64,000 bases of DNA from a virus. The stretch lies in the IMG/VR virus record IMGVR_UViG_3300031705_000002, positions 1-64,000 of that record; one strand, written 5' to 3'. The first letter of the stretch is position 1, and each line of letters opens with the position of its first letter. Positions 24,012 through 64,000 of this stretch are shown here, one piece after another. The position numbers and the translations under genes were made by a program. A model generated the notes under the pieces. The model did no database searches and was not told the origin of the DNA. It saw only the letters and a program-made list of their open reading frames with translations.

Positions 24012-24530
24012 TTATGCTTCTACCCCGTAGATAGGGTAACCTCCTCCACTTATATGCCCACTAGGATACATATTATACGCATCTTCTGAGGAGTCATTAA
24101 ATTCTAAATGAAAATGTGCGCCCTTTTTGTTGCCACGCTCATCTATAAGCTCTGCGTTATTATCCTTTAAGTACTTTAATCCTTTTGCAGAAATCTTCGT
24201 TCCTTTTGTATCCCAATCATCAAAGAAAAACTTCATCATTGCTTTACCATCTGTGCTTTTTACTCCAAAATCTACAGCGTTACCTGATGCGTGTAACGAA
24301 CCTGAGTCTCCGTCGCGAGTAGCACTTGTTATAGTGTACCCATCAGAACCAAAATCTCCAGAAGAAAGTAACGAATTTAGGTTATATAAACCATGTTGAG
24401 CGTTACCTCCTAAAGCTGTGTTTTTAGCGTTACGTACAGTTATAGGAACATTTTTATTCTTGTATGTATCTATACCAAATGTTGACCAATCTGAATCAAC
24501 CTCCTCCTGGTCTGGAGTAGGTGTGATTAC
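24012..24530 (-). CDS. M15-type peptidase domain made by -1 frameshift from the preceding gene
   Basis: Reading frame -1 relative to the 1108-residue gene stays open for 172 codons from the slippery site to TAA at 24012-24014. It contains no ATG, GTG or TTG near its beginning, and a TAG lies just upstream (24537-24539), so it cannot easily be an independent gene. The translation has the M15 peptidase pattern: SATRDGD, then S-x-H-x-x-G-x-A-x-D (His at extension residue 80, Asp at 87) and HFHLEF near the end (His 139 and 141). These are the zinc ligands and catalytic region of D,D- and L,D-peptidases of the VanY and endolysin type. Joined to the upstream protein, the product would be about 1280 residues. 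An internal ATG at 24239 would give only the last 75 residues, without the zinc ligands. Confidence 0.8.
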   Translation of the reverse strand, partial: VITPTPDQEEVDSDWSTFGIDTYKNKNVPITVRNAKNTALGGNAQHGLYNLNSLLSSGDFGSDGYTITSATRDGDSGSLHASGNAVDFGVKSTDGKAMMKFFFDDWDTKGTKISAKGLKYLKDNNAELIDERGNKKGAHFHLEFNDSSEDAYNMYPSGHISGGGYPIYGVEA

Positions 24531-24536
24531 TTTCCC
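24499..24536 (-). promoter_or_regulatory. Programmed -1 ribosomal frameshift signal
   Basis: Zero-frame codons read AGG GGA AAG TAA. The heptamer G GGA AAG (24536-24530) is the same slippery sequence as in the lambda G-GT tail assembly genes. The zero-frame stop follows immediately. After a 7-8 base spacer (TAATCACA) comes a hairpin: CCTACTCC (24521-24514) pairs with GGAGGAGG (24507-24500), with one A-G mismatch and the loop AGACCA; an extra A-T pair can close the base. Spacing and stem position are as expected for -1 frameshifting. The -1 frame is closed by TAG only a few bases upstream, so the shift must occur here. Confidence 0.82.
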
Positions 24537-27500
24537 CTAGGGGTACCTTTTTGATTGGTATCCTTCTGACCCATCTCTGCGTTCAACTCTATGCTCCACT
24601 CTTCAAGCTTTTTCAAGGCATCTAAATCACCTGTTCTAGCAGCTGTTACAAGATTCTCATAGTCTTCTTTCCCGTACTTTTCACGCATTAGAACACCACT
24701 TCCACCATCAATAGCAGCAGAAAGTCTATCTGATGCATTTTGAAGTTTTCTATCTCTATTCATAACACCAAGATTCTCAGCACCTACTTGCATTGCATCA
24801 ACTAGTGCATCCTCTGAAGCACTCTTACTTGCCAAGTTAGTATCATCAATCATCATTTGATTAGATACATCTTGCATATCTCCTTGAGCGTTGAACTTAG
24901 CAGCTTCAAATATTGCCTTAGCATTTTGATTATCAATACCTCTATTCATTTCGTTTTCAGCACTACCTATATCAGCATTAGCATCTAATTTCTTAGAGTA
25001 CGCAGCCATTTGATCAGATAAACTTCCACCTTGCGTCTGAACAAAATTAACTACCTTTTGGTAATCTCTCTCATTCTGTGCTCTTTCTTTGTCCATATTC
25101 CCGTACTTCAACTTCTCAGGAGTAACCTCTGGAGCTGTTCCAGGTAACTTTACTCTATCTACGTTCTTAGCGTTTTTATACGCCTGAGCTACAGGAATCA
25201 TACTAGCTAATCCTACTGCATTGTCCATAGTAAGACCTTTCTTTAAACGACTTAACTGCTGATCCCACGTAAGTTTATTACTTTCGTTTTTAGCGTTTGT
25301 AGTTATATCTTCAGTTGCCTTATTAGTAGCTACAGATTCCTCTGCAGGAGAATTAAATACACTCTCAGGGTTGGTAGGTAATGTAATCTCATTATCAGAA
25401 TTACCTGGACCTGGAGGCGAAGAAAGTACAGTATCTCCCCAATCAGCGTTTGCTCCTGCATCGTACCCATAGCTGTCTATAAAGTACTGACGTCTTTGTG
25501 CTCCTGTCATACCAGACAACGCACCACCAGTTGAATACTTATTTCTAACGCTTCCTCCGTTTTTCATAAATAATTTCTTAGGATCTCTTCCAGCTTGTTT
25601 CTCTTGTGTAACCGCTAGACTTATTTTCTCCTCATCAGTTCCACCATTCGCTAGTATCTTCTCATGTTGTTGAGCATAAGATGATCCGCCGTTCTTTAAG
25701 TGCGACGAAAAGATATAAGGTTTACCTAAGATCTCCTCTTCAGTTTCCTGATCCTCTACGTTAGTTCGAGAATTCTTATCTATACCACCTTCTTCGTGTG
25801 TCGCTCCTATGTACTTTTTAGCCCCGGAAGGTAAATCAACGACTTCTCCACCTGGAAGAGGTCTACCTCCAGTAGCCATTTCATTTCCTTGGTATCCGTA
25901 TTTACCTTTGAAAATATTACTGAAAAAGTTTCCAATACCACTCTTAGTGTTTCCAAACTTTTCCATTCTACGTGCATCTCTACTAGACATTATATCTTGA
26001 GTACCTTTAGAATTAAACTTAGAATCAGGATTGTTTTGTGATACTCTCTCAGAAGTATTATTTTTCATCTCATTCTGCCTGGTCTTAAATAAATCTCTCC
26101 TATAATTATTATTATTTATACGATTCTTTCTGTAATCAGAACGCTCTCTCCCTGAAGCACTGTAGTTAGGATCCGTGTACTTTCCATTAAGCATGTTCGC
26201 ACCGCTTAATCCCATACGCGATTCCATAGAGTCTACACCTGTGGTTGCGCCATCCATAAATAGCTTTTCACCATTCGCATCGTACTGCTCACCTTCCCAA
26301 ACATTGGAATCAGGTGTTATTCTATTCCCACCATAAAGACTAGTATTCCAATTGTTGCGGGTACCGTCTGCATTTGCCCCCATTGATTGGTTAATAGCTC
26401 CTGTATTTTTGTTTACACCCCTATTAAACTGTTCATACGCTATTTGAGTAGGTCCTCCTGTTTCGTAGTGGCCTCTCCCTCCTGTCCGAGCTTCGTACTT
26501 CTTTATGTTAGATGAAAAATCTTGCCCAAAGTTTATACCCGATTGCATTCTCTTTTGAGAATCAATAAGGTCTGACTTGTTGGCTAGTGTATTTGTTTTC
26601 GTTTCAAGCTTCCCCTGCGCCATTTTTTTAGCAGACTTGATTTCATTTCTTTCTTTCCACTTCATAGCAACATCTTTGATCCCTCCAATATAGTCACCTG
26701 TCGCAACAGCTGTTCCTACATCACCAGCAACTTCCCACCACTTATACGTACCAGCATCTTGATCACTGATCAATCTATCTGACACCATATCTATAGGGTT
26801 TGGCTCTGTAGCTCCAACTAGTTCTAGTCCTTTGTCAAGACCTGTACTAAGCATTTGATTCTTACGCGAGATTTCAGCTTCTTTTGCAGAGCTGTCTGGA
26901 CCGTCTTCTAATAGTTGTTTTTTCTGCGCGTCTAAATCTTGAGAATCACCAGGAGTGTATAAACTATTCTGTATTGTGTTACTCCTTGTATTGTACGAGC
27001 CTCCAACAGCTTGTCCGCTGCTATACCCTTGTGGTATATCATTATCGTAAAGATCAGACTCATCTCCTAAAGTAGAGTCATCTACTCCTGCATTTTGGTA
27101 GTATTTCATACCTCCGTTTCTGTAGGTATCCATCCCTCCAGTACGCTTTTCAGATATATTTACTGCAGTTCTTTTTCCTTCCCCGTTTTTAGATCCCCAA
27201 TATGTACCTATATTCCTAGGGGTAGAGTATCCTGCACCTGAAGTTTTTGCAAACTGTGAAGCTTTATCTGCCGCACTCATATCATCTGACACTGCATTAT
27301 TAAAGTTGTATTGATCTATAAATAGTGTATCAGTTGTTCCCGGCGGTATGAATATGCTAGCTCTTCCGTACGTAGTTTTAGCATTATAGTCCTCACTGCT
27401 CATGGTTTTCTTAAACATATCCCACGTATTTCCAGACGTTGGATCTACATCAGCAGTAGGAGTTTGGTACTCCGTACCGTCATCATTTAAATGTGTTTTG

Positions 27501-37836: not shown

Positions 37837-38310
37837 CTAATTTTTTTTAAATTTTAAATACGCCAAATCATCTGTTCTTAAAAGATGAATCAATTTTTCT
37901 TTATTTCCCTTTATTCCTCGTGTTAGGTCAAACCTATACACGGACTTATTAGGTATTAAGCATTTTCCTTTTCTCCAATAATATCTACAGTACTCAGCAT
38001 TAGTATGGTATATGTACCATTTTATTCCCTTACCTGTTTCGGAGTTATATAGGGCTATACCCTTAGTTTCTAGCTCTTTTTTATACTTCAAGCTTTCCCC
38101 CCAATCTATTTTAGGGAACGAAGGATTTGTTTCTACTCTCACAATCGACAGTGAAGATAGTTTATTTCCCATATTAAACGTGCCTCCATCTAAGATATAA
38201 TCAATCATATCTATGTTGAACTCAGAGCATATAGCTGTAAAAGTTTTCTTATCCACATATTCCTTCTCAGAAATATATTTTATATATATATCTTTTAAAG
38301 TGTATCCCAT
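37837..38310 (-). CDS. Small conserved crAss-like structural protein, copy A
   Basis: A 157-residue protein, basic and aromatic. Features shared with the protein at 44073-44537: a helical N-terminus, a DGG/DGS turn followed by a hydrophobic LSSLSIVRV-type strand, IDWGESLKYKKEL matching IDWQKSKELKKR, HTNAEYCRYYWRKG matching HTGGYKYRFYWKKG, and a basic C-terminal helix ending the chain. The family is widespread in crAss-like phages next to ring proteins and is thought to be virion-associated; its exact place is not known to me. It is coupled to the upstream ring protein gene by TAATG. It is the last gene of module copy A. Confidence 0.7.
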   Translation of the reverse strand: MGYTLKDIYIKYISEKEYVDKKTFTAICSEFNIDMIDYILDGGTFNMGNKLSSLSIVRVETNPSFPKIDWGESLKYKKELETKGIALYNSETGKGIKWYIYHTNAEYCRYYWRKGKCLIPNKSVYRFDLTRGIKGNKEKLIHLLRTDDLAYLKFKKN

Positions 38311-39008
38311 TATCTGGCAGGTCCTCTACTAGGTGAAGGCGGTGCTGAAACATCCTGTGCATTATCATTAGTGGTGTCACTTGGAGTGGTCGCCAACAAC
38401 TGTAATTCCTTAGAAGCAATCCCTTCTGTAATAGCTTGTATCATATCCATAGGTATTGGGTAGTCATCAGTGCTATTATAACAATCGTTACCCTCACAGT
38501 CGAACGTAGCTAATGACTCAGGGTCTTCAAATATACCTCTTATATTTATATAGGATAGACCATTAGCGTTATAAATATAGATATGGTCCTCAATCATATA
38601 CGCTCGCCTCTCATGATTAGTATACTTATCATAAGGAAGCCACTGTACAGTTATAGGGTCTACAATAGGAATAGTCTCTAGCCCTGTTATATCTCCTACA
38701 TGTGTGATAGCGTCTTTAAAGTTTAACCTAACTGTTTTAGGGATAGGCTCTACAGACTTGTATACAGAAGCTCTGGCAGGTAATCTACAGCATTTAGTAG
38801 CATCAACTTTCTCTACTTTAATACATTTTAAATCCTGCTCAAGGTGCCTAGTTATATTACCATTTCTAGCATAGTCCCTACGTATCAGCATTGCTCGGTA
38901 ATACTTAATGTTAAATTTAATTTGAGCCAGAGATATATGTTCACTCACATTAGATCTACCTCCTCTAACTAAATTTAAAATGTTGTATGCTATTTCATCT
39001 AGTGTCAT
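38310..39008 (-). CDS. Ring (neck) protein, copy A
   Basis: A 232-residue protein with the N-terminal signature of a crAss-like ring protein family: ILNLVRGGRS, then SLAQIKFNIKYYRAMLIRRD. The same elements occur in the protein at 44537-45232 (IKNIIRGGVQ, RQIEFQIHTLRAQYIRQD). The middle is beta-rich with WLPYDKY and an IYIYNANG strand; the C-terminus has a helix after DDYPIPMDMIQAI and a disordered Ser/Pro/Thr tail. Expected role: one of the stacked rings joining portal and tail. Overlaps by one base with the next gene (TAATG). Two paralogues could form two different rings; that is an inference. Confidence 0.7.
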   Translation of the reverse strand: MTLDEIAYNILNLVRGGRSNVSEHISLAQIKFNIKYYRAMLIRRDYARNGNITRHLEQDLKCIKVEKVDATKCCRLPARASVYKSVEPIPKTVRLNFKDAITHVGDITGLETIPIVDPITVQWLPYDKYTNHERRAYMIEDHIYIYNANGLSYINIRGIFEDPESLATFDCEGNDCYNSTDDYPIPMDMIQAITEGIASKELQLLATTPSDTTNDNAQDVSAPPSPSRGPAR

Positions 39009-39014
39009 ATCTTT

Positions 39015-40166
39015 CTACACATTAGTTTGTAAATATCCTTCGTATCCTCGTTGTTTGTTCCATATATGTGCCTGACCTGTTCTTTTAGCCTCATACCCCA
39101 TCATCTTATGCCAATCATCATTCTTGCATATAGAAGGTATGAACCTAACTTTAATCCCTCTGTACTCATTTACCATTTCTTTGTGTACATGGCCACAGTG
39201 CGCTTCTCTTGAGGTCGTACGAGCAAACATAACAGGTTGCTCAGTAGCCATTATTAATGGCATGTCAGCTGCCTTAACTTTGTCTCCGTGTGTAAACATA
39301 ATCATGTTGATCCCGTACTCGTAGTACTTACGGTGCTCAAATGAATTATCTATTAACACTTGACCATCATTTGTGAAGTACGCATTTAAGTACTCACCGG
39401 CGTAGAACATACGTTCATAGTCGTGATTCCCCTGTATAACTACTACGTCAACTGGAGCATATTGAGATAGATACTGGATTGCTCTTACGATTAATGCGCA
39501 GTATCCTACAAATGTTTCTTTCCAATCTGCTGAATCAAATTGAGGTGTACCCTTAGTGGTAGCCCTACTTAACCCTTCAGAATTCATACCATCATTACCT
39601 ATTGGTAAGAGTATTTTTTCAATATCTAAACCTTTAGATTTAATCATAAGGTCCTCAATCACATTCATATACTCTTCCTCAGCTTGTTTTAAAGTTTGAC
39701 CTGTATACTTTCCATAGTGAATATCAGGCAAAGATACCTCGTATGTAACGGGATCTTTTGCTTTGCTAGGTTCTACTCTTGCACGTATCGGGCTGTGGTT
39801 CTTAAGGATCTCAATGATTTCAGCCTTAGTGTTATCTATGACTTCATCTTCCCCCTTAACGACAACAGAGAATCTTTTTTCTCCTCCCATATTCTGCCAG
39901 AATTTAACTGACTGAATATCATTCTTATCTATATCGTTCTCTTGTACGAATCTATCAAAATCATTTAACTCGCTTTGGTCTATGTTTATGTTAGCGTTTG
40001 AGAGGACCATACTAGTAAAGCCTCCCATTGCTTCTATCCGCGCTTCCTTCAATGCTTCTTTACAAAGGTCTACATCGCATTCTAATTTTAAAGCTAATCT
40101 CCCTGAGCCCTCTTTAAGGTATCCAGGCTTGAGATGTAAAAACTCTTTAATTTCAGACTTCGTCAT
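39015..40166 (-). CDS. Calcineurin-like metallophosphoesterase, copy A
   Basis: This 383-residue enzyme has all metal-binding motifs of the calcineurin-like superfamily: Asp148-Ile-His150, GND at 190-192, GNHD at 246-249, THGD at 292-295 and GHVH at 325-328. It should hydrolyse phosphoesters, possibly nucleic acid or nucleotide ends, with two metal ions. Residues 13-45 look like a helix-turn-helix (GYLKEGSGRLALKLE), so it may act on DNA. The paralogue at 45233-46411 has a different N-terminal domain on the same core. It overlaps the holin gene by 4 bases and sits before a ring protein gene. Its presence in a late, structural region suggests packaging or ejection rather than general metabolism; that is inference. 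Confidence 0.85.
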   Translation of the reverse strand: MTKSEIKEFLHLKPGYLKEGSGRLALKLECDVDLCKEALKEARIEAMGGFTSMVLSNANINIDQSELNDFDRFVQENDIDKNDIQSVKFWQNMGGEKRFSVVVKGEDEVIDNTKAEIIEILKNHSPIRARVEPSKAKDPVTYEVSLPDIHYGKYTGQTLKQAEEEYMNVIEDLMIKSKGLDIEKILLPIGNDGMNSEGLSRATTKGTPQFDSADWKETFVGYCALIVRAIQYLSQYAPVDVVVIQGNHDYERMFYAGEYLNAYFTNDGQVLIDNSFEHRKYYEYGINMIMFTHGDKVKAADMPLIMATEQPVMFARTTSREAHCGHVHKEMVNEYRGIKVRFIPSICKNDDWHKMMGYEAKRTGQAHIWNKQRGYEGYLQTNV

Positions 40167-44073: not shown

Positions 44074-44537
44074 TACATAAAATAATCTAGTTCTCTATCT
44101 TCATCTTTTAATATACCCGCCAACCTTCTAGCGTTAGTTCTGGTTGGTATGAAAGCGTATGCAGTTATATTCTTAACTGCCCCCTTCTTCCAATAGAACC
44201 TGTATTTATATCCTCCTGTATGAGCGTTCATATGATAGATACGCTTCTTCAGTTCTTTAGATTTTTGCCAATCTATCCTGAGGGTATTCTTGTCTGCAAA
44301 ATTCATCTTAGTCTTTTTGACTCTCATGAACCCTAGCCTAACAAGAAGTTTAATCTCAGCACTGCCGTCTAACATCTTGTCTACCAGTGCTTTATTATAT
44401 TCATCACAAACCTTTCTGAATACTTTGTACTCTGCTTGCAATTCTTTTATTGTATTCTTCTTGTAGAACTTGTAAATATCTCTACATCCATTATCTATTT
44501 TGTAAACTCCGTCTCCTCGTTTGCTGTTTTCGTACAC
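44073..44537 (-). CDS. Small conserved crAss-like structural protein, copy B
   Basis: A 154-residue protein starting with GTG (TAGTG overlap with the ring protein gene). It is related to the protein at 37837-38310: a helical N-terminus, a DGSAEIKLLVRLG strand, IDWQKSKELKKR and HTGGYKYRFYWKKG, and a basic C-terminal end. The N-terminal residues differ strongly between the copies. It is basic overall and has no membrane segment. Probably a virion protein near the neck. It is the last gene of module copy B and is coupled to the fibre gene. Confidence 0.7.
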   Translation of the reverse strand: MYENSKRGDGVYKIDNGCRDIYKFYKKNTIKELQAEYKVFRKVCDEYNKALVDKMLDGSAEIKLLVRLGFMRVKKTKMNFADKNTLRIDWQKSKELKKRIYHMNAHTGGYKYRFYWKKGAVKNITAYAFIPTRTNARRLAGILKDEDRELDYFM

Positions 44538-45232
44538 TATTTCTGAGCGTTAGGTTGTAGGTCTGAGTTAGCATTATTTGATCTATCTGTCTGCATCTGA
44601 ATCATAGGCTGCATATTCTGAGCCATCATAGCTTGCTTAATTAGATCTAGCATTGAAGTAGATAAAGGGTATTCATCAGTTTCTACATCGTAGCAAAGGC
44701 TATCATCTGATTTTGTGTACTCTCCTATCCTAGTAGGATCCTGCCAAACACCCTCTACTTTAATCTCTTCTAATAACTCTGCTTCTGGGCCTAAGATATA
44801 TACGAATCCGTCTAGCAAGAATGCAAATGTCATCCTCTGAGTATATCTATTATTTCCTGCCCAGGGAGCTCTGTTGTAAGGGATCATGTGGAAGTTGGCT
44901 GAGAGAATTCCTGTAGGCCCAATAGCTGTTACCAAATTTTGGTGAGCAGTTTCTACTGAACTAGGTATCTTCTTCTTAGATCTAACGATCATAACTTCAT
45001 CTGAAAGACCACAAGTAGTCCCACTTACAGGCTCTACCTCTAGACAGTATATTAATTGTTTAATATTATCAGATATACTCCTACGCTTATTAATATCCTG
45101 ACGGATATACTGCGCTCTTAGGGTGTGTATCTGAAACTCGATCTGACGATCTGATATAATATCATCATCAGATTGAACCCCACCACGAATGATGTTCTTA
45201 ATGTCGTAAACAATTTCTTTTAATAGTGCCAT
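44537..45232 (-). CDS. Ring (neck) protein, copy B
   Basis: A 231-residue protein with the family start IVYDIKNIIRGGVQ and RQIEFQIHTLRAQYIRQD, a CLEVEPVSGTTCGL region, a beta-rich middle with MIPYNRAPWAG and a helical C-terminus rich in Met and Gln. It is related to the protein at 38310-39008 in the first 60 residues and in the DEYPLS / DDYPIP element, but is otherwise diverged. Likely a neck ring subunit. It begins right after the phosphoesterase stop and overlaps the next gene by one base (TAGTG). Confidence 0.7.
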   Translation of the reverse strand: MALLKEIVYDIKNIIRGGVQSDDDIISDRQIEFQIHTLRAQYIRQDINKRRSISDNIKQLIYCLEVEPVSGTTCGLSDEVMIVRSKKKIPSSVETAHQNLVTAIGPTGILSANFHMIPYNRAPWAGNNRYTQRMTFAFLLDGFVYILGPEAELLEEIKVEGVWQDPTRIGEYTKSDDSLCYDVETDEYPLSTSMLDLIKQAMMAQNMQPMIQMQTDRSNNANSDLQPNAQK

Positions 45233-46411
45233 CTAGTCTAAATTTACTTGTAAGTGCCCTTCACACCCTTTACTTTTATTCCATATATACGCCTGAGCTT
45301 CTCTCATGGCCCCGTAACCCATCACCTTATGCCAAGTATCGTTAGGGCAAATACTAGGCAGGAACCTTACTTTAATCCCTCCTGTGTACGTGTTAACAAT
45401 CTCTCTATGTTGATGTCCACAGTGTATCTCTCTATATTTACATTTAGCAAATTTTACAGGTTGCTCTGTAGCCATTATTATAGGCATGACTGCAGGTTTT
45501 TCTTTGTCTCCGTGGGTAAACATTATAAGGTTTGTTCCGTACACATAGTACTTCCTAGACTCATAACTATTATCCACTTCTACTACTGTAGAATCTCTAT
45601 ACCAAGATTCAATAACTTCACCTATGTAGAACATACGTTCGAAGTCATGATTACCTTGTATTACTATAACGTCTACTGGTGCGAATGCTGCTAAATAATC
45701 TATAGCTAACACTAACAACTTCCAATATCCTCTAAAGGTCTCCTGCCATTCCTCAGAATCATGCTGAGGAGTTCCCTTAGTTGTTGCTCGGCTGTACCCT
45801 TCAGAGTTTAAACCATCATTACCAATAGGAAGGATAAACCTTTCTATGTTAAGTCCAGTTGCTTTTCGATGTAACTCCTTAATAGTATTAAGGTATATTC
45901 GATTAGCTTTCTCTTGGGATACTCCCGTTATCTTACCATAATGAAAATCAGGTAAAGATATTTCGTATGCTACTGGATCCCCTATCTTAAAATCATAGGC
46001 TGGATCTGGATGCTCGGGTACGTATTCCTGCATCTCTTTAAAGAACTCTTCTTTAAACTCAATTAAGTTTGCTGCCTGCGGTTTAGTTACCACAGAGAAC
46101 CTAGAGTCTCCCTTAACTGTTTGCCAGTGTTTAACCGACGTTACCTCTTTTTGATTTATACCTTTTTCCTTCAGGTGTATATCTAGTTCGGGAAGGTACG
46201 CATTCTCAGCTGAACTGTAGTCTTTCGTGTCATTTTCATTAGAGTTTTTATCTGACTCCTGCCCTGACCACTTAAATCCTCCTGCGGAATTCCTAGCTCC
46301 TAATAATACTTTTCTTATACTACTGTCGTTTACTCCCGACTCTCGCATAGCTTCCATGATTGTTGCGTACTCCCCTACAATATTGCCTTGGCTATCAATT
46401 TGTAAAATCAT
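45233..46411 (-). CDS. Metallophosphoesterase with NUMOD1-like DNA-binding domain, copy B
   Basis: A 392-residue protein. The core has the full set of calcineurin-like motifs: Asp155-Phe-His157, GND at 197-199, GNHD at 253-256, THGD at 299-302 and GHQH at 332-335. Residues 1-49 look like a NUMOD1 module (ILQIDSQGNIVGEYATIMEA, then SIRKVLLGARNSAGGFKWS), a small helix-turn-helix domain usually joined to homing endonucleases of phages. Here it is joined to a phosphoesterase. The copy at 39015-40166 has a different helix-turn-helix at the same place, so the N-terminal domain was exchanged. Substrate unknown; DNA is a reasonable guess. Confidence 0.82.
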   Translation of the reverse strand: MILQIDSQGNIVGEYATIMEAMRESGVNDSSIRKVLLGARNSAGGFKWSGQESDKNSNENDTKDYSSAENAYLPELDIHLKEKGINQKEVTSVKHWQTVKGDSRFSVVTKPQAANLIEFKEEFFKEMQEYVPEHPDPAYDFKIGDPVAYEISLPDFHYGKITGVSQEKANRIYLNTIKELHRKATGLNIERFILPIGNDGLNSEGYSRATTKGTPQHDSEEWQETFRGYWKLLVLAIDYLAAFAPVDVIVIQGNHDFERMFYIGEVIESWYRDSTVVEVDNSYESRKYYVYGTNLIMFTHGDKEKPAVMPIIMATEQPVKFAKCKYREIHCGHQHREIVNTYTGGIKVRFLPSICPNDTWHKVMGYGAMREAQAYIWNKSKGCEGHLQVNLD

Positions 46412-60740: not shown

Positions 60741-63700
60741 TTATAATTTTACAAATTTACAAATATTTTCTATATTTTCTTTGATTTTAAAGAACTTTTT
60801 CGCATATTCAAGCGCGATAGGTGTTTTTATATTCACAGCCTTTAACTGTTCTGAGGTATACAGTCTGAATAAGATACTCCCGAGAGTGCCTGCCCAAACC
60901 ATCTCCCCTAACCTACGTACGTAAGGTCCCGAATAAGACTCCCCAGAAGCTGAGTAGTATACTCCTCCCAAGGTAAATAACTTAGAAGTTAGTGTGAAGT
61001 TTAAGGAATCTCTTGGGAGAGGTTCTTCGACATACTCCCCGCAGTCTACTTCATATTCCACGCCAGAATCTAGGATTATCTGATTAATCGTCTCATCGGA
61101 GGCTCCGCCCCCTATAAAGCACCCCTCCGATGTAAGAACACCCGAAAGACATGCATCGTCACTAAGTACGTACTGGTAACCCCCACCCGCACATTCTTGG
61201 CCTTCAGTGTCATACAAAGGGTATTCATCGTTATATAGTACAGGGCTCTCTGTAGCTCCCTCCTCAAAGTATTCAAGGTATTCCTCTAAGTATAGGGCGT
61301 CTCCGCAATCTGTAGGTGAGACAACTTCACATATCTCTATTATATGTGTAGGGACTACACAGCCTTCTTCCCCTAAAAATATACAGTGTCTCCAGTCATA
61401 TATAGATGCATCAGGGTTGTAATTAAGAGCCTCTATATCCATACACCCTACAAGTGAGGTGGTATCTATAGCCTCTATGTACTCTACAATTTCCGTAAAA
61501 ATAGGAGTAAAAAGATCCACAGTAGATACATATGTTTTTAAGTCTAATAAGTCTGCAAACACCTTCATGGGAGCGAAGGTTCCTGCGCCTGAATCCAGAA
61601 CCTCCTCAATAATAGCTATCTGAGAAGGGCTATAGGCCTGCCTAGTTCCTGAATATATTACATTGTCTAGGGTCTTATACCCCTCTCCGTACCCGTAAGA
61701 CCTAACACCAGTACCAAGACTGTAATTCATAGGATCCGCTAGTGTATTGAATGTATAGGTGTACCCGTTAAACGTCATTCCGTGTAGATACAACTCCGTA
61801 CTTTCTCCCTTAAGATAGCTCTTATAGCTATCTATATCTAAGTCTACTATTTTATAAGGATTGTAGTATTCAGAGTACATTTCAGTGCTTCCCGTAATAA
61901 CTCTATTTAACATCGTCCCTGCACTTCGACGTGAATAGTCCATAGGCATTACATCAGGGTACGAGTATATATCCGAGATGTCTACGTATGTACCCCCTCC
62001 TACCGCAAAAGTTTGGTACGTAAGGGTTTGACCTAAGGCAAGCTCGTAGGGCAACTTACTCTCAGGCCCTGCTATACCATAATAACCAAAAGTAGGTAAA
62101 TGCCCATTATATGTGCTGAAAGCCGCAACATTCCCTTTAAAATATTTTGTAGCCAGAAGTGAGTTAAACACAAGTAAATTCCTCAAAGTTTGACTGTGTT
62201 CATTTACGGCGCCGTCAAAGACGCTCCTCATAACTCTTGCGTAAAGCTCTTGAGCCTCCCCAATAACGTATCCTACAAAATCACCATCAATATCTCTGTA
62301 CGTTTGGGGGGTATGTAGACAGGGACAAAACTCTGCATTGTATAAATCATCTGTAGGAGTATTGTCAGGATAAGGAGGGTAGGCAGTGTTAGCCCAATTA
62401 CCGTTAACTTCCCAAAACTCATCGTATATATCTGTAGGGGCACCGTCCCCGTCCAACTTACAGAAGGACGCCCTTGTAATAAAATCTATAGGAGAAATCC
62501 GCGTATAATTAGTGGCAGTAGTAGTAGTTATTACTATATTAGAAAAAACCCCTCCAGACGTTGAATCAATAGTTAGGTCAAAGTTTTCGGGGGATGTACT
62601 CCACGGAGATATAGTAATGCTTGCTCCGACACTCCCGTTATCTACAATAGTACTCCCAAACATACCTCCCTCGTGGTGCAGGTTTACATAACCTCCCCCA
62701 AATTGCGAAGAAAGGGTTACAGTAAAGCTTATAGATTCAAACCTCCCCTCTATGGGGATAATTATAGGCGAACCCCCCATAGTAGTTACACTTCCAGTGG
62801 TCTCATTTATATATATAGAGCCATCCATAGATGTATGTATCTTAGCAAAAATTGGAGTGTAACTTCCCGTAACACCCGAAGTTACATCTTCGTAGTGAGA
62901 CTTATTAACAACAAATTTAGGGAACCCTTCCTCCGTGACAGCAGTGTCAGACAAGTGCCCTCCCCAAGGGGCCCCGTGATCTACTGCTGCGGTAGAATAT
63001 TTAACCTGTAATTTTAGGGCTGAAATCTCCTCGGACGAGAGGTCGAAAGGAGAGCCTGCTATAGTTTCAGGTATTATTTTTATAGTTACCCCATCTTCCA
63101 CAACAGTATCATACCCTAAAGTAGGTTTGTTAGGGGAAGAGTGCATGTCCTTTAGGTGCCTAAACAGCCCACTTAAATACTGACTATCTGTAGTACTTAA
63201 GCCTCCAGCACTTTCTGCAGTAAACGTAAATATAGGCTTATATGAATCTACAAGCCCTCCCTCAAAAGAATGCTTCAAAGCGAAGGTATGCCCAAGCTCA
63301 TGTGTAAGTATACTCACAAAAGTGTTAAACTTAAACTCAGAAAAAGCACCTATAGGGGTAGCCATCATAAGCTCCCCGTGCCCCATAAAAGAGTTATTAC
63401 TCGAGTAACGCGACGTAGGCATAGAGGCTCTACCTGAAAAGTCAACTCTACGGCCAAACTTCCCTGAGGGACCCGACAACACTATTATATTTAAAAAAGG
63501 ATAGCCAGCTTTCCCCGTGTTTTTGTAATATTGGTAAGCTTCGTTTTCAGAGTAATCAGCTAAGCGCCCATAACGGACATTAATATCCCCGATATTAAAT
63601 CTAGGGGTTTCGCTAAGAGTTTGGTGCCTATACTTAGCGGACAGTCCTGGGGCCCCAAAACCTTCTAAGGTAGAGGCAGCAAGCATTTCAGACCCTTTCA

Positions 63701-64000
63701 ATTTACTCTGGTCTTGAATAAATATAGCCCCCTCAGGTCCGCAATCTATAAATCCTCCTAAATCTGCTATATGTCTAAGCCGTACTAAGTTTATGTATTC
63801 TGGGGTTAACTCCAAAGCAGCCCCCACGCCCCCTGGATCTCCCACCCACTCGCTCTCAAAGGTAGATGAAAATATAAGAAACTCCTCCTCTGCTGCCTCT
63901 CGCTGAGCAAGTGCTTCGTCACTTATAGTGTTTAGGGTGTCAGATGCTGTGTATGAAAAATAAGGGGAATCAGAGTCTGCCGCAACTTTAAAATCCACTA
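60741..64000 (-). CDS. Metzincin-type metalloprotease and adhesion protein, 5' end cut by window
   Basis: The frame is open to the window edge; the GTG at 63998 is not a reliable start, and the gene probably begins beyond 64000. At least 1086 codons are visible. Counting from that GTG, His233-Glu-Leu-Gly-His237-Thr-Phe-Ala-Leu-Lys-His243 is the extended zinc motif HExxHxxxxxH of metzincins, with Ala where Gly is usual. I could not find a convincing Met-turn. Beta-rich domains follow. Gly851 starts an adhesion repeat (GCMDIEALNYNPDAS). The C-terminal 70 residues are helical. Placed with tail fibres, it may cleave host surface or extracellular proteins, or process tail proteins. Family and function are inferred from the motif. 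Confidence 0.75.
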   Translation of the reverse strand, partial: VDFKVAADSDSPYFSYTASDTLNTISDEALAQREAAEEEFLIFSSTFESEWVGDPGGVGAALELTPEYINLVRLRHIADLGGFIDCGPEGAIFIQDQSKLKGSEMLAASTLEGFGAPGLSAKYRHQTLSETPRFNIGDINVRYGRLADYSENEAYQYYKNTGKAGYPFLNIIVLSGPSGKFGRRVDFSGRASMPTSRYSSNNSFMGHGELMMATPIGAFSEFKFNTFVSILTHELGHTFALKHSFEGGLVDSYKPIFTFTAESAGGLSTTDSQYLSGLFRHLKDMHSSPNKPTLGYDTVVEDGVTIKIIPETIAGSPFDLSSEEISALKLQVKYSTAAVDHGAPWGGHLSDTAVTEEGFPKFVVNKSHYEDVTSGVTGSYTPIFAKIHTSMDGSIYINETTGSVTTMGGSPIIIPIEGRFESISFTVTLSSQFGGGYVNLHHEGGMFGSTIVDNGSVGASITISPWSTSPENFDLTIDSTSGGVFSNIVITTTTATNYTRISPIDFITRASFCKLDGDGAPTDIYDEFWEVNGNWANTAYPPYPDNTPTDDLYNAEFCPCLHTPQTYRDIDGDFVGYVIGEAQELYARVMRSVFDGAVNEHSQTLRNLLVFNSLLATKYFKGNVAAFSTYNGHLPTFGYYGIAGPESKLPYELALGQTLTYQTFAVGGGTYVDISDIYSYPDVMPMDYSRRSAGTMLNRVITGSTEMYSEYYNPYKIVDLDIDSYKSYLKGESTELYLHGMTFNGYTYTFNTLADPMNYSLGTGVRSYGYGEGYKTLDNVIYSGTRQAYSPSQIAIIEEVLDSGAGTFAPMKVFADLLDLKTYVSTVDLFTPIFTEIVEYIEAIDTTSLVGCMDIEALNYNPDASIYDWRHCIFLGEEGCVVPTHIIEICEVVSPTDCGDALYLEEYLEYFEEGATESPVLYNDEYPLYDTEGQECAGGGYQYVLSDDACLSGVLTSEGCFIGGGASDETINQIILDSGVEYEVDCGEYVEEPLPRDSLNFTLTSKLFTLGGVYYSASGESYSGPYVRRLGEMVWAGTLGSILFRLYTSEQLKAVNIKTPIALEYAKKFFKIKENIENICKFVKL

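Follow-up and report, generated by a model that had tools for sequence, protein, structure and literature searches.

The heptamer at the lambda G/GT frameshift site is G_GGA_AAG. This sequence is highly shift-prone in E. coli (PMC5009743). Frameshifting also adds C-terminal domains to the coat and tail proteins of phages, among them the Ig-like domains in T3 and Lactobacillus phage A2, with further cases in Listeria phages A118, A500, and PSA (PMC5009743). In the crAss-like phage PhicrAss001, the gene that follows the one for the muzzle protein gp44 encodes cargo protein C1 (gp45), and it is followed in turn by genes for C2 and the RNA polymerase proteins (PMC10172136). C1 spans the tail barrel and the capsid and is expected to be the first protein out on ejection, and the text of the paper that describes it mentions neither frameshifting nor peptidoglycan (PMC10172136). 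Full-text searches of open papers revealed no case of frameshifting in the structural or cargo region of Crassvirales.

We consider it likely that programmed -1 ribosomal frameshifting takes place at the site described here, with which the gene for a virion cargo (ejection) protein ends in a crAss-like phage. The window that was analyzed is a stretch of 64,000 nt from the IMG/VR virus record IMGVR_UViG_3300031705_000002, an uncultivated-virus assembly of 94,957 bp. Judging from the match of its 3020-aa muzzle protein, the genome is that of a crAss-like phage, whose host is presumably a Bacteroidota. The N-terminal part of this muzzle-family protein has kin among the structural proteins of Fpv-group Flavobacterium phages and of one gut crAss-like phage. 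The coordinates of the relevant features are given in Table 1.

Table 1. Features at and around the candidate frameshift site, in window coordinates
Feature	Position	Strand	Remarks
crAss muzzle protein gene, 3020 aa	27853..36915	-	Directly upstream of the cargo gene; Pfam crAss_MUZ, E 6e-43
Zero-frame cargo ORF (short product), 1108 aa	24527..27853	-	Weak PG_binding_1-like N-terminal start; homologs in L156/L165, L166, L167, L168; position after muzzle, as C1 gp45
TAG stop closing the -1 frame	24537..24539	-	Abuts the heptamer
Slippery heptamer GGGAAAG, in phase as G_GGA_AAG	24530..24536	-	Sole place where a -1 shift can join both frames
TAA stop of the zero frame	24527..24529	-	Flush with the heptamer
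Candidate stimulatory hairpin	24499..24522	-	7-nt spacer after the heptamer; 4+4 pairs plus one A.G mismatch; extendable to 24494-24528
-1 frame extension, 172 codons	24012..24530	-	Lacks a canonical start; encodes a linker followed by an M15-like zinc peptidase domain (aa about 29-171); codon-usage switch; homologs at 40-53% identity
Motif SLHASGNAVDFGV (S-x-H-x6-D, putative M15 metal-binding)	24261..24299	-	S78, H80, G83, D87 invariant in alignment
Motif HFH (putative second M15 motif, H-x-H)	24108..24116	-	H139, H141 invariant in alignment
Next cargo-region gene, 738 aa	21785..24001	-	Gap to the M15 stop about 10 nt, as behind the in-frame fusion in L156

Like the gene for C1 in PhicrAss001, the 1108-aa ORF sits directly downstream from the muzzle gene, and this gene position alone makes its product a probable virion cargo protein in the C1 position. 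A profile of the cargo family (P0001), compared with solved-structure chains, gave no sequence homology to gp45, although that set may or may not include gp45 itself. The N-terminus of the cargo protein has a weak peptidoglycan-binding match (PG_binding_1, E 0.005, below cut-off). Residues 58-233 are 29% identical (E 3e-8) to the product of a gene of 5.7 kb in Pelagibacter phage HTVC115P. This phage, whose host group is unrelated, provides the sole P0001 match among GenBank phages.

Farther along the same strand, a 4471-aa ORF (21782-8367, minus strand) carries a DYDID motif at residue 3379, from which we infer a crAss-like virion RNA polymerase. The homolog of this ORF in G001 (L152) appears as two genes of 1861 and 2078 aa, and the cargo genes of the RNA-polymerase region seem to be fused in the phage under study. 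Elsewhere in the window, a two-gene module is present in duplicate at 38310-40166 and 44537-46411 (minus strand). One of its genes encodes a virion structural protein (phrog_9863) whose copies are 27% identical, and the adjacent one a phosphoesterase/exonuclease-like protein (phrog_704) whose copies are 55% identical. A large protein encoded in the structural region at 60741-63998 (minus strand) weakly matches the metallopeptidase family Peptidase_M43, with an E value (0.0008) that misses the cut-off.

Read 5' to 3' on the minus strand, the junction is ...GGT ACC CCT AGG GGA AAG TAA in the zero frame and CCC TAG GGG AAA GTA ATC in the -1 frame. Three elements thus form one contiguous layout, TAG-GGGAAAG-TAA: the stop that closes the -1 frame, then the heptamer, then the zero-frame stop. 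An earlier note on this DNA had stated that the zero frame ends AGG GGA AAG TAA with GGGAAAG in the right phase and the stop following at once, and that the -1 frame is closed by a TAG just upstream, is open for 172 codons, and has no start codon; all of this was confirmed. The two open frames overlap over exactly the 7 nt of G_GGA_AAG, which has the form X_XXY_YYZ in zero-frame phase. Because they overlap over the heptamer alone, a -1 shift can join them only there, and the fusion protein would read ...NQKGTPRGK followed by VITPTPDQEEVDSDW... across the junction. Log-odds scores of codon usage are positive for frame 0 upstream of the junction and for frame -1 downstream of it, and they are as high as those of normal genes.

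The first ATG, GTG, or TTG in the -1 frame is codon 98, which lies inside the domain and past the first metal motif, and the only near-start codons before it are ATC at codon 2 and ATA at codons 20, 30, and 67. An independent M15 protein, produced by re-initiation beside the UAA with AUC (codon 2) or AUA (codon 20 or 30) as its non-standard start, would therefore have to do without any of the three usual starts. AUC and AUA are very poor start codons, SD-like motifs stand ahead of only five of the 26 minus-strand genes examined, and re-initiation leaves the exact heptamer unexplained. Although the AUC shares bases with the stop (UAAUC), the G-rich sequence AGGGG is found a short distance upstream, and in other relatives the M15 domain opens a different gene and has an ATG of its own, the syntenic relative L156 (see below) makes a fusion, and we assign re-initiation only a very small probability.

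Other ways around the TAA were considered as well. Stop-codon readthrough was ruled out by the 15 further stops that lie beyond it in the zero frame. Transcriptional slippage looks unlikely, as the runs consist of just 4 G and 3 A, and the scarcity of SD-like motifs likewise makes SD-driven stimulation or coupling unlikely.

Another in-phase GGGAAAG is present in the gene set of this genome, and therefore the heptamer alone is not diagnostic. The chance of the arrangement was estimated with a purely statistical null model in which each single base was deleted in turn in the intact genes of this genome. Of these random one-base deletions, 2.9% left an XXXAAAR heptamer within the overlap, a share that rose to 5.1% when only deletions in runs of 4 or more were counted, with all genes pooled; such a heptamer was flush with the zero-frame stop in 0.18% (0.37% in runs of 4 or more). 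These two sets of figures are the fair estimates of chance, as opposed to that for the exact layout of stop, heptamer, and stop, which arose in at most 0.07% of random one-base deletions but is a post hoc figure.

The same numbers bear on the explanation that cargo and M15 truly, or usually, make up a single uninterrupted gene and that the break reflects an assembly or sequencing error or a very recent mutation, which we regard as unlikely. The site does sit in short runs of G and A (GGGG/AAA), a context in which single-base indels are commoner, and the record is an assembly of an uncultivated virus. Long-read assemblies of cultured Crassvirales, moreover, show frameshift errors that need polishing (PMC10569736). 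However, just 3-5% of unrelated indels would leave such a heptamer within the overlap, and 0.2-0.4% would leave it flush with the stop. Furthermore, inspection of the listed gene set brought up no second broken gene, and even the very long ORFs near the cargo gene are intact (738, 1652, 3020, and 4471 aa).

Relatives of the phage supply evidence on both forms of the product. In record IMGVR_UViG_3300006947_000019 (L156/L165), the genes for the muzzle, the cargo protein, a 764-aa protein, and the RNA-polymerase region follow one another as they do here. Its cargo and M15 parts form one continuous ORF of 1015 aa, with identities of 32% in the cargo part and 53% in M15, and the gap from this ORF to the next gene is again about 10 nt. 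Because this cargo-M15 fusion occurs in the same gene order, the lineage does have a real fusion product. Conversely, the cargo proteins of L166, L167, and L168 are without M15 and end shortly past a conserved 'DGGSGV' region, about where the zero-frame product ends here, which argues that the short product is a natural form as well. In another group of crAss-like phages, comprising G003, G007, L157, L158, L159, L161, and L163, a homologous M15 domain is found at the N-terminus of a cargo gene of the RNA-polymerase region, with its own start (ATG). This occurrence in differing places and frames indicates that M15 is a module mobile between cargo genes, present or absent, in frame or, in this phage, out of frame.

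The continuity of L156 at the homologous site also favors an error or recent mutation, and it had been proposed beforehand that related genomes with both parts in one continuous frame would suggest a sequence error. To the letter, L156 is such a genome, and it establishes the fusion as a real type of product. Yet at just 32% identity in the cargo part it is too distant, and is therefore silent on sequencing error in this particular genome. It is the single case of a same-site cargo-M15 fusion among the relatives found. Scans of IMG/VR with P0002, P0001, and the N-terminus of the 4471-aa protein, together with the M15, cargo, and muzzle alignments, yielded no close relative at the site, in a search that may pass over very near records, nor did bacterial and archaeal genome contigs, and M15 had no match in GenBank phages. 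Contigs with an MCP that is 94-100% identical do exist. Since none of the scans gave a close relative at this locus, the chief competitor of frameshifting is still an error in assembly or a recent mutation; re-initiation and decay of the domain have a lower probability.

The portion encoded in the -1 frame had been described as a recognizable enzyme domain. This holds for its M15-like motifs, but the Pfam matches of its homologs and its own fold matches fall below threshold. The motifs S-x-H-x6-D and H-F-H together make up what we take to be the M15 metal-binding pattern, and the putative zinc ligands H80, D87, and H139/H141 are invariant in an alignment of seven homologs. A Pfam search with the M15 part of this phage alone returned no convincing family match, and its homologs match Peptidase_M15_3 (PF08291) weakly (E 0.003-0.004, below cut-off). 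An AlphaFold model built from seven sequences has a mean pLDDT of 73. The top two Foldseek matches to this model are the Zn enzymes 9flk and 1lbu, which at E values of 0.6 and 2.9 are not significant. With no M15 profile or fold match above the curated threshold in Pfam or Foldseek, we call the domain M15-like only, a name drawn from the motif, the weak Pfam matches of the homologs, and the weak fold matches. The first 28 residues of the model are of low confidence, which fits a linker and would probably place the site of the shift in between two domains.

The state of this ORF likewise argues against a genuine frameshift mutation that silenced M15, after which the short cargo protein alone would be used and the M15 ORF would be decaying. 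Such a loss would be in keeping with L166-L168, which live without M15 at this place. But here the ORF is interrupted by no additional stop or change of frame, it keeps the residues that are invariant in the M15 alignment, and its codon usage is still gene-like, all of which makes decay highly improbable.

A GC-rich hairpin of 8-9 pairs, beginning 7-8 bases past the heptamer, had been suggested in the earlier note as a further element of the signal. A hairpin is indeed present, with the sequence ACCU-A-CUCC(AGACCA)GGAG-G-AGGU, in which 8 pairs surround one A.G mismatch, and it starts after 7 nt. Its stability, however, is statistically unremarkable: z is -1.1 to -1.6 relative to shuffles, and an equally good folding occurs at 5.5% of random positions in this genome. 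The hairpin is well placed, with a spacer inside the range of about 5-8 nt for a stimulatory structure, yet it is the weakest of the elements and only marginally better than chance.

The interpretation of the site as a programmed -1 frameshift, which the earlier note had put forward, is thus supported, since all elements are in phase and relatives carry either the fusion or the short form. We favor it because the overlap of the frames is exactly the in-phase heptamer, an outcome that is rare after random deletion, and because the -1 ORF lacks an ATG, GTG, or TTG before codon 98, yet is favored by codon usage from about the junction onward and keeps the residues invariant among homologs. It is further favored because no other gene in the listed set looks broken and because G_GGA_AAG is prone to shifting in E. 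coli (PMC5009743), the host here being presumably a Bacteroidota.

For programmed frameshifting at this site, we infer that most ribosomes would terminate at the TAA and release the 1108-aa cargo protein. A fraction would shift by -1 at G_GGA_AAG, perhaps with some aid from the hairpin that begins 7 nt further on, and the resulting cargo protein of about 1280 aa would carry an M15-like peptidase domain at its C-terminus. Such slippage would probably serve to load a cell-wall peptidase on just a minority of the cargo copies. The copies that bear M15 may be packaged along with the remaining cargo and be the first to leave the particle, and at entry they could cut the peptide cross-links of the host wall. 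We also lean toward a broader proposal, namely that crAss-like phages set the stoichiometry of cell-wall peptidase among their ejected cargo by -1 frameshifting, with the M15-like module being mobile and, depending on the lineage, in frame, frameshifted, or absent.

If frameshifting does occur at this site, it would be a case in the structural or cargo region of Crassvirales, where the open papers searched hold none. It would predict that virions contain both the short and the extended cargo protein in a constant proportion, and it would bear on the poorly understood passage of the large protein cargo and DNA of crAss-like phages through the cell wall. Gene callers would miss the M15 part.

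With respect to known enzymes, the extension has the S-x-H-x6-D and H-x-H motifs in common with the Peptidase M15 family, as represented by the Streptomyces albus Zn DD-peptidase (1lbu) and the pneumococcal VldE domain, the two Zn enzymes that head its fold matches. It differs from that family in that its homologs fall below the Pfam cut-off, this protein itself has no Pfam match, and its fold matches are not significant. Lambda G/GT offers the same arrangement as the locus described here, with a heptamer near the end of the upstream gene and a -1 shift that yields a minority protein extended at its C-terminus. The lambda products, however, are tail assembly chaperones that are absent from the virion (PMC5009743), whereas the protein extended here is a probable virion cargo protein and the extension is peptidase-like. 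The Ig-like domains of phages are mobile, carried on a fraction of a structural protein by frameshifting in some phages and in frame in others (PMC5009743), and the same pattern is seen here when L156 is included in the comparison. In contrast to the Ig-like cases, the added domain is enzyme-like, resembling an M15 zinc peptidase, and its carrier is a muzzle-adjacent cargo protein, so that what frameshifting doses at this site would be an enzyme, and not a domain of the Ig-like or chaperone kind.
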